NCBI RefSeq assembly: GCF_000499385.1
Contig: NW_013652856.1
Location: 25,001-49,094 of the forward strand
Direction: 5' to 3'
Length of the DNA: 24,094 bases
From: Eimeria necatrix
Taxonomy: Eukaryota > Apicomplexa > Conoidasida > Eucoccidiorida > Eimeriidae
In this document: positions 9,101 through 12,100 of the stretch, piece by piece
Position numbering within the stretch: the stretch's first letter is position 1
How the letters are laid out: every line of letters begins with the position of its first letter
Position numbers and translations under genes: made by a program
The notes under the pieces: generated by a model
Database searches by the model: none
Seen by the model: only the letters and a program-made list of their open reading frames with translations
Told to the model about the DNA's origin: nothing

Positions 9101-12100
9101 TTCCAAATGAACTTTGCTGTTGCTGCATCTCCTGCTGCTGCTGCAGCAACAGCAGCAGCAGCAAGTCGCTGCTGCAGGCCCCACAAACCCTCAGGGGGGC
9201 CCCCCCCTTCAAGGGGGGCCCCCCAAGTTGACTTAAAGGGTTTAAAAAGTTCAAAGTCCAAAATTGAGTCTCTGAGGCGCTGCCACAGACTTGCTGCTGC
9301 TGCTGCTGCCACTTCTTGCTGCTGCAGCAGCAGCAGCAGCGCCTGGTGCACAAACAGCACAAAACAAAGGACACTTTTAATGTTAAACTTTCTTCAATTA
9401 CTTTGCAAACAAATAAAAGATTAAACAAAAGAATAAACGATTAATTAATGGATCAAACAGAAACAATAAATGCAAACGAGTTCAAACAAAGAAGGAGTTC
9501 TTCGAAGCGTAATTGCTTTGAAAGAAAAGAACTCGAAATAAAAACAAATAAATAGAAATAAAAACAAATAAATAAAAATAAAAACAAATAAATAAAAATA
9601 AAACAAATAAATAAATAAAAATAAAATAACTCACTTCTCGATGCCGCTTTTGCCTTATAAGTTTTTCGAAAGAAAATCTGAAATTCGAAATTGCGAGAAA
9701 AGTCGCTGCATGCTTCTGGGGTGTACGTACAGCTACTGTGGGGGCCCGGGGTGTATCTGCAGCTTTCCACTTTTCCGTTTTTTTCTTTTTTTCTTTTTCA
9801 ACTTCAAAAACAAATCCCAAAAGCAAACCCTCAACTCCCAGCAACTCCACTCGCCGAAAGTCCTCGATGTTGTACCTGCAGCGCAAACCCTAAACCCTAA
9901 ACCCTAAACCCTAAACCCTAAACCCTAAACCCTAAATTTTGAGCTCCCTAGCGCCAATTTACAAAAGAAGAAGGGGTGACTGTTTTACACTAGGGTTTAG
10001 GGTTTAGGGTTTAGGGTTTAGGTTTTACCAAATGCAGATTGTACGGTCGCCGGTTTGAGCAACAAGAACATATTCATCTTTGAGAAGCTCCGCTTTGCTG
10101 CAGCAACTGAGCAGCAGCAGCGGCTGCTGCTGCTGCTGTTGCTGCTGCTGCTGCTGCTGCTGCTGCTGATCTGCTGCTGCAGCAAAAGGGAGAAGGTACA
10201 GCTCCCCACAGGCAAGGAGGAAGAGGAGGACTCTGCGAAAAAATTAAATCTTCATTTTCACTTAATTTAATTTAATTCAATTCAGTTTAATTTAATTTAA
10301 TTTAATTTAATTTAATTTAATTTTATTTTATTTTATTTTTTATTCAATCTAAGTTTATTCATTTATTTTTAGTTCTGTGGTTTTGTTGCTGTTCTCCTTC
10401 ATCCTGCCCTTGTATGAAGCGAGTAGACCTCTAAACACTACACCTTAAACCCTAAACCCTACACCCTTAACCCTAAACCCTAAACCCTAAACCCTAAACC
10501 CTAAACCCTAAACGCCAAATCCTGGAAGGCTGCATCATCTGGTCACATATGGCAAAACCAGCAAGCACAACCGTTCTGGCCAAAGGTAACGTTTAGGGTT
10601 TAGGGATTGGGGTTTAGGGTTTGGGGTTTAGGGTTTAGGGTTTAGGGTTTAGGGTTTAGGGTTTAGGGTTTTTACCTTTCGGTGAGGGCGAGCCACTTGA
10701 CTGGAAAGGGTGTCTCTACACTTGCTTTTATTTCTCCTGTCTTTGCGTCTATTACTCTAATGCATGCAAAACAAATAAAAATAATTATTTATTTATTTTT
10801 AATTGTTTATTTTGGAAATAATTATACTTCTTATTTAAATGCAAAACGAATAATTATAATTATTTACTTTTAAATAAATAAATAGTGTGTGGGAAACAAG
10901 TAAATGTAATTGTTTATATTTAAATTCATAATATTGTTTATAATAATATTTGAATAAATAAATAATGCGTGCAAGAGACATAAATGTAGTTATTTATTAA
11001 ACAAACAAATAATGCATGCAAAACAAATAAATGTAATTAATTAATTATTTTTTTAATTTTTTATCTTGTAAATAGTTTTATTTACTTCTCCTAAGTGCAA
11101 AAGAGAAAAAAGTAATGCATGCGAAAGAAATAAATCCAAATATTTATTTTTCAATAAATGAGGATTGCATGCAAAAGAAATAAATACAATTCTTTATTTT
11201 TAAATATTTATTTTGCACGCAAGATAAGAATATGTAATAATGGGTTTTTAAATATTTGTTATATTTGAATTGAATGAAACGGGAATTGCGGAGAAAAAAG
11301 AAACAAAAAAATAAAAAGAAATTAAAAAGAAATCAATAGAAATAAAAAGGAAGTTAAAAGAAATAAAAGGAATAAAATTAAACGAAATTAAGAGAAATTA
11401 AAGGCAATTAAAAAGAAATAAAAAGAAAATTAAAAGAAATAAAAGAAATATGAGGGGAAAAATGAAATTAAAAGAAATTAAAAAAAAACAAAAGGGAAAC
11501 ACAACACGTCAAATAAAAAGAGCAAAGAGTAGACAAAAAACAAAAAAAGAAAAATAAAAGGAGAAACGGAAAAAGAAAAATTAAAAAACAGAAAACAAAA
11601 AGAAAAGTAAAAGAAAAATAAAATGAAAATAAAAACAAAAACGGACAAAAGGAGACAAAAAAAACAAACAGAGATGAAGATACAATAGGGGGTAAAATGA
11701 AAAGAAAAAAGAAAAAAGAGGTACAAAAAAGAAAGAACTAAATAAAAAACAAACAAAAGGAGACAAACAAAAGAGACGAGAAAGCAAAAAATAGGAACAA
11801 AAAAGAATCAAAAAGAAAACAAAAAAAGATTTAAAAAAGAAAAAATAATTTAAAAATATTTAAAATCAGAAAAACGAAAAGACAAAAATTGCCTGCCTGA
11901 TGGCTTGCTTGGCTATGAGGTGCCCCAGCAGCAATCCGTCCTGCAGCAGCAGCAGCAGCAGCAGCAGCAGCAGCAGCAGTAGCAGCAGCAGTAGCAGAAG
12001 CAGCAGCAGCAGCAGTAGCAGCAGCAGTAGCAGAAGCAGCAGCAGCAGCAGCAGCAAGAGTAGCAGCAGGAGCAGCAGCAGCAGCAAAATGAGAAATTAC

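Follow-up and report, generated by a model that had tools for sequence, protein, structure and literature searches.

Several introns of a gene at this locus are framed by inverted telomere-like repeats, with AAACCCT units near the donor and TTTAGGG units toward the acceptor on the sense strand. This raises the question of whether such repeats supply splice sites and generate introns, or whether they have spread into introns as far as the splice sites. The window analyzed (the whole stretch of 24,094 nucleotides, G000:C538:25001-49094) belongs to a genome of 44 Mb in 1148 contigs, in which three consecutive TTTAGGG units match 17829 times in the forward and 17599 times in the reverse orientation (overlapping registers counted) versus 20 times for a reversed control. 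Many of these sites, among the matches listed, lie deep within contigs, and telomere-like TTTAGGG is in this respect interstitial, with arrays away from chromosome ends. Heptamer and CAG repeats have been described for Eimeria, and both match this genome (passages of PMC4287421, PMC9131526 and PMC7564333). The sequence that we sampled has a G+C content of 42%, and 51-53% is given for E. tenella and E. falciformis in a passage of PMC4287421. Telomere-like repeats are a known oddity of Eimeria, the distribution of which is left unexplained in the available literature passages. Those passages also hold no rule for the position or strand of the repeats relative to splice sites; PMC1800922 and PMC4199364 may say more.

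The window gene runs on the minus strand and has WD40-like and TPR parts as detected by Pfam, where the WD40 match (E 1.1e-5) is just under the cut-off, the best TPR family is TPR_GEMI5 (1.8e-9) and TPR_IF140-IFT172 reaches 0.0098. When spliced conceptually over 7441-6380 and 6270-6056, its product matches IFT172 in the PDB (8bd7_S) with an E value of 5.7e-14, followed by IFT144 at 0.0094. A WD40-TPR protein nearest to IFT172 is therefore the best label for the putative product, one that stays short of proof because the PDB alignment consists of several TPR-like stretches. Reading frames are open through the junctions 10676/10232, 10029/9875, 7442/6379 and 6271/6055. The junctions of introns 7441-6380 and 6270-6056 also have homology support, and those of 10675-10233 and 10028-9876 are placed by open frame only, with the piece spanning these latter two giving no credible PDB or Pfam match. 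As judged by frames and alignment, the four introns are real. A self-trained gene finder was dropped after it missed known exons of this gene, and an Rfam scan of window positions 5500-17000 returned nothing at gathering score.

The intron at 9876..10028 (minus strand, as are all features of this gene given below) opens with GTAAAACC and ends in CTGCAG, with a sense AAACCCT tract (9991..10022) adjoining its donor and a sense TTTAGGG tract (9885..9936) followed by the acceptor 12 nt on, an order that we abbreviate as C..G. The C..G intron at 10233..10675 starts with GTAAAAACCC and ends in TTCGCAG after an AT-rich tail, with an AAACCCT tract (10591..10671) adjoining the donor and a TTTAGGG tract (10446..10513) that stops 217 nt short of the acceptor. 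Between these two introns lies the open-frame exon 10029..10232. The intron at 6380..7441 starts with GTAACTCACACTAAACCC / GTAACTCACAC, ends in TTGCAG and carries three sense AAACCCT tracts (7231-7431, 7032-7100 and 6695-6960) ahead of a single sense TTTAGGG tract (6393..6427) with the acceptor 16 nt on. It is separated by the exon 6271..6379, which has both frame and PDB homology, from the C..G intron at 6056..6270, which begins with GTAAACCCTAAATTAGGG, ends in CTGCAG after an AT-rich tail, and opens with a hairpin GTAAACCCTAAATTAGGGTTTAGGG almost without a loop. The sequence-only reading had described arm-framed introns at 10675-10233, 10028-9876 and 7441-6380, and these stand, with tracts in place, frames open and, for 7441-6380, homology at the junctions. 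Its fourth example, 12321..12729 (C..G..G), is a probable intron for which the donor GTAAACCC is clear and the acceptor is ambiguous, with TTTAG/GG and CACACAG/ as the two candidate sites (slash at the cut). It had also noted the other orientation near some donors, and we likewise find sense TTTAGGG tracts at 8922..9002 and, by a GTGAGG, at 14148..14211, both at presumed donors with provisional boundaries. There is an acceptor exception as well, since the intron at 12793..13065 (acceptor set by eye, give or take one base) has two AAACCCT tracts and zero TTTAGGG.

The two ends of these introns relate differently to the repeat. In introns 6270, 12729, 10675 and 10028 a tract abuts the donor GT or comes very close to doing so; in 7441 the distance is about 10 nt. 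The acceptor is not supplied by the repeat, because in the four frame-checked window introns the CAG sits 12, 16, 183 and 217 nt past the last TTTAGGG. The proposal that a unit pair GTAAACCC...GGGTTTAG already holds GT and AG at its tips is consequently not borne out at the acceptor side, where a CAG beyond the tract is used and the TTTAGs are skipped. An acceptor CAG is common to 13 of 13 frame-checked introns, in the window and in the genes described below, which run GT...CAG with boundaries set by frame and alignment and include no non-canonical splice sites. Up to 15 TTTAGs are skipped upstream of the chosen CAG.

Genome-wide, sense TTTAGGG lies ahead of acceptor-like sites. Two TTTAGGG units followed by GCAGG at 2-20 nt occur 1421 times in the forward and 709 times in the reverse search, and two CCCTAAA units followed by GCAGG at the same distance occur 365 and 257 times, respectively. 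Note that, as judged from the matches listed, the forward counts are registers and the reverse counts take each GCAGG once, so that the comparison is 709 versus 257, a 2.8-fold difference (binomial p 1.6e-49 if sites are independent). The same bias is observed in tract-edge tests on 250 kb (25 sequences with 120 usable tracts, of which those sharing one stretch are not independent of each other), where GCAG follows within 24 nt of the 3' edge for 39 of 120 TTTAGGG versus 13 of 120 AAACCCT tracts (p 7e-5). At 30-54 nt past the edge there is no strand difference (21 versus 22 of the 120 tracts). The 24 tracts of the window alone give 14 versus 0, and without the window the counts are 25 versus 13 of 96 (25 versus 12 in a slightly smaller set of 94, p 0.027). 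The acceptor signal is thus weaker beyond the window, which we count against our best explanation. The genome-wide and 120-tract counts exclude chance as the origin of the signal, and they bear out the predicted TTTAGGG bias ahead of acceptors. Two weak tests, which we also count against it, showed no effect: a codon score did not single out the TTTAGGG 3' edge as richer in coding-like flanks (43/85 versus 40/79), and good-quality fits in an exon-sandwich test, with small numbers, did not differ among G..C (4/10), C..G (4/13) and same-strand (12/52) arrangements.

The G-before-GCAGG count could in principle be a property of the usual flank of the repeat rather than of acceptors, as GGGTTTGCGCAGG recurs verbatim among the matches listed. 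However, a kinase exon match starts at such a site (C26:57782), further kinase and AAA exons with checked frames come right after sites of this kind, and the stretch that separates array from CAG is variable in both sequence and length, all of which makes a flank property an improbable source of the count. A second possibility is that the repeats enter introns through telomerase or break repair, with the strand beside CAG determined by insertion polarity or microhomology instead of by splicing. Mammalian interstitial telomeric repeats are indeed described as inserted at breaks with microhomology (in part of PMC2246262). On the other hand, the signal does not reach beyond about 24 nt and is tied to acceptor-like motifs, and frame-checked exons begin there. 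Neither this confinement nor the exon starts are expected from insertion chemistry by itself, and we regard such insertion as a doubtful explanation, albeit one with a better claim than a flank property.

Tract-bearing introns also occur in other genes. Six short stretches (loci L035-L040) were chosen through pattern matches and are not random because they were picked by cross-reading the pattern listings; L013 was chosen prior to any tract-edge analysis. Contiguous Pfam matches across the conceptual splices are seen for a Pkinase domain in L035 (2-198 on profile 12-198, spanning a G..G intron at 1070-1325 and two tract-free introns), in L036 (1-101 on 46-145, spanning an intron with only a G tract and a C..G intron) and in L038 (1-86 on 110-185, spanning C tracts and a single G unit ahead of the acceptor), and for an AAA domain in L037 (7-77 on 1-71, spanning a C..G intron). 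In L013 a gene with a transketolase domain is interrupted by a C..G..G intron, and here too the conceptual splice aligns contiguously (30 aa, E 1.4e-4). The G..G intron of L039 (59-266) has frame support only: Pfam was empty for this locus, and a PDB look-up of two short exons gave no match, so that 'Spt5-like' and 'RRM-like' are tentative labels for the products of L039 and L040, respectively. Of 11 frame-checked tract-bearing introns, seven are C..G (four in the window plus those of L036, L037 and L013), two are G..G, one has a G tract at the acceptor side only, and one is C..C with one G unit.

Pfam was also run on 30 open frames near tracts. It gave strong matches to a methyltransferase (L028), IF-2 (L017) and transketolase (L013), and a weak subtilase match covering L027:159-329; matches to TgpA_N, TFIIA, DLEU7 and Senescence_reg were set aside as weak. 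Two kinase matches on one strand of L031 have a TTTAGGG tract between them, shortly ahead of the second, and L017 provides a counter-example in which a sense AAACCCT tract is directly upstream of the IF-2 frame.

In regards to the donor side, donors adjoin tracts of either strand, as with GTAAACCC..., with GTAGGGTTTAGGG in L036 (AAG/GTAGGGTTTAGGG) and with GTGAGGGTTTAGGG in L027, where two duplicated exons end in GAC/GTGAGGGTTTAGGG. Genome-wide, GTAAACCCTAAACCC occurs 1715 times versus 881 for (A/T)TAAACCCTAAACCC, which is 3.9-fold per base. This excess does not consist wholly of donors, because five of the 11 sampled GTAAACCCTAAACCC sites are otherwise explained: three are acceptor-like ends of the type TTTACGCAG read as their reverse complement, and two are internal variants; the A/T counterparts number 13 in the same sampled sequence. 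Donor-like sites were scored with a generic matrix that is untrained and that under-scores GTAAACCC when the site overlaps the tract, a problem avoided by scoring at 6-30 nt. At that distance a score of at least 1 is found before 6 of 118 AAACCCT and 13 of 118 TTTAGGG tracts, and without the window before 4 versus 10 of 94 (p=0.16); at a score of at least 3 the latter comparison is 1 versus 8 of 94 (p=0.035). With tract overlap allowed, a count that is biased against GTAAACCC, a score of at least 4 is found before 0 of 120 versus 10 of 120. Donor-like sites outside the window therefore precede TTTAGGG at least as often as AAACCCT, and frame-checked G..G introns exist, so that the anticipated rule of AAACCCT after donors is rejected: it does not reach past this gene and, if anything, is reversed.

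This donor lean toward TTTAGGG beyond the window would also suit a transcription-linked bias, in which the G-rich strand is favored as the non-template strand throughout introns, much as the G4 motifs located close to human junctions are found preferentially on the non-template strand (passage of PMC9065059). Such a bias is nevertheless at odds with sense AAACCCT in many introns, including the seven C..G cases, and with the window span 6234-14211, where 13 tracts are sense G and 8 are sense C. We consider it unlikely.

Inverted framing is a minority arrangement. Neighboring tracts less than 150 nt apart fall into 27 CC, 23 GG, 11 CG and 5 GC pairs, where shuffles within each stretch expect 21.9, 19.0, 12.5 and 12.5. 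Same-strand neighbors thus account for 50 of 66 pairs (P 0.0055), inverted C..G neighbors at up to 150 nt show no excess over shuffles, and the CG minus GC difference has P 0.064. Two-unit ends 60-90 nt apart are C..G in 772 and G..C in 471 cases genome-wide (registers counted), and this mild excess of C..G over G..C is expected if G precedes acceptors.

These arrangements bear on the proposal that an introner-like element with inverted telomere-like ends inserts into exons, brings its own splice sites and so generates introns. C..G being the commonest class among the frame-checked tract-bearing introns, the excess of GTAAACCC edges and the presence of one loop on two contigs are what such an element might leave. 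Against this, the acceptors lie outside the repeat, G..G introns exist, inverted neighbors do not exceed expectation, and target-site-like repeats are not above control, with a mean longest boundary repeat of 3.0 versus 3.24 in mismatched pairs for 13 introns. Loops are also nearly all unrelated: among 80 loops (from a sample of about 0.26 Mb of the 44 Mb) clear similarity is confined to three pairs, of which two are tandem neighbors and one is across contigs, and the heptamer array alone is common to the introns in place of the sequence-similar copies expected of introners. The seven of 40 consecutive loop pairs that are similar beyond the 99% random level all lie in direct arrays. Besides the intron itself, a genome-wide query with 10680-10230 listed matches that cover tracts; two of them, at about 75% identity, extend over both arms, and none of the matches listed is a close second copy of the loop. 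Repeats as creators of introns are therefore not supported, nothing here demonstrates such a role, and we give the intron-generating element that had been proposed little probability.

The explanation that we favor, with about an even chance of being correct, is that telomere-like heptamer arrays colonized introns of this coccidian-type genome up to the splice sites, with a strand that is restricted next to acceptors and left open next to donors; the inverted plan would then be the result. In several conserved genes that are unrelated to one another, arrays do come to within a few nucleotides of donors and acceptors. Arrays with their short loops would multiply through local tandem duplication, which is partly shown, and selection would keep them within introns because a 7-nt unit would disrupt reading frames. 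Splicing would then filter array strand at the 3' end, where the TTTAGGG strand may be favored because it places U-runs just ahead of CAG. The UAGs of the array may be skipped because they are hidden, either through pairing with an AAACCCT arm farther upstream, as in the inverted introns, or, where that arm is missing, in an RNA G-quadruplex.

Predicted folds are consistent with such masking in C..G introns. Intron 10028-9876 with 15-nt flanks has a predicted minimum free energy of -82.4 kcal/mol that brings donor and acceptor to 8 steps apart; strong predicted folding is expected here because the arms are long and complementary. The suggestion that complementary arms could pair and draw the splice sites together thus agrees with the predicted fold. 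Mean predicted pairing of the TTTAGGG AGs is 0.96 in this intron and 0.87, 1.0, 0.69 and 0.83 in introns 10675, 7441, 6270 and 12729, respectively. Arms that pair both intron ends are present in C..G folds and absent in G..G introns, which have no C arm, and hairpin masking was therefore rejected as a universal answer. With quadruplexes allowed, the AGs predicted in a helix or G4 are 8 of 9 in L035, 11 of 14 in L039 and 4 of 4 TTTAGG units in the first intron of L036; without G4 the paired AGs number 5, 12 and 0. Selection for quadruplexes has no direct support because GGG runs are about as numerous in tracts associated with acceptors as in the others (p 0.44).

A bolder and rather doubtful extension would make telomere-type arrays a portable module for the 3' splice site in this lineage, in which sense (UUUAGGG)n just ahead of a CAG would hide its own UAGs, in a stem or RNA quadruplex, and reduce the distance to the first CAG left exposed. 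If so, hundreds to thousands of sites would have introns that were reshaped, and perhaps even founded, through the spread of telomeric repeats. The acceptor strand rule links telomere-like repeats to splicing and raises the question of how the spliceosome gets past as many as 15 UAGs before it arrives at a single CAG. Hundreds of natural sites are available for telling masking by a stem, masking by a quadruplex and simple tolerance apart.

Among the closest known systems are the interspersed AAACCCT/TTTAGGG repeats of Eimeria itself, in repeat-rich bands (passages of PMC4287421, PMC9131526 and PMC7564333). By analogy, and as far as the available passages go, the nearest precedents are the enrichment of G4 motifs at human junctions for function (PMC9065059), introners of the alveolate Amoebophrya for structure (PMC7789003) and mammalian telomerase-linked insertions for origin (PMC2246262). 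For human G-quadruplex motifs at splice junctions, one passage describes an asymmetry that is more pronounced at the 5' splice site, whereas here a single telomere-like array has its bias at the 3' splice site. Amoebophrya introners, as described in part of that source, resemble the present introns in having inverted repeats at both ends and a hairpin that joins exon boundaries. However, they have inverted repeats of 8-20 nt, direct boundary repeats of 3-5 nt and largely non-canonical introns, unlike the long telomere-like arms, GT-CAG ends and boundary repeats not above control seen here, where the inverted plan is limited to some of the introns. Introners generally share with our case repetitive DNA in introns and a donor partly formed by the repeat, but their families have sequence common across introns, often with TIRs and TSDs (passage of PMC9860276), where only the heptamer array is common here. 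Mammalian interstitial telomeric sequences are alike in placing telomere-type repeats inside chromosomes (passage of PMC2246262), and differ from the thousands of copies and the 3' splice-site bias in this genome.

Several duplications and further repeats were observed. An identical 48-nt loop between two AAACCCT tracts is found at L015:5056-5103 (C27) and L017:4892-4939 (C59); the adjacent tract ends are identical and the flanks ahead of the first tract differ, and this tract-loop-tract cassette seems to have been copied. L027:255-329 and L027:414-488 are exon-like tandem duplicates (98.7%), both with the GTGAGGGTTTAGGG donor-like end, as if exon and tract had been duplicated together. L035:1520-1801 and L040 contain short tandem arrays of a tract plus a GC-rich loop, with successive loops alike. 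In whole or in part, the palindrome GGTGTACGTACACC occurs at window positions 1050, 9720, 13806, 14321 and 21421 and several times in L035 introns. There are 31 TGCATGCATGCA repeats in the window (about 14300-15050 and 21130-21330), and in several frames these read openly as Met-His-Ala-Cys repeats. Long intron parts are AT-rich with AAAT units (e.g. 12290-10780 and 6230-6060), and AAATAAATAAAT is present 65 times in the window; these AAAT-rich stretches are a second repeat type inside tract-bearing introns. Finally, three near-identical short tracts lie 76-81 nt apart at window positions 13437, 13518 and 13594 (plus strand; minus-strand reading GGGTTTACGCAG) and make up a small local array of putative acceptor-like ends.
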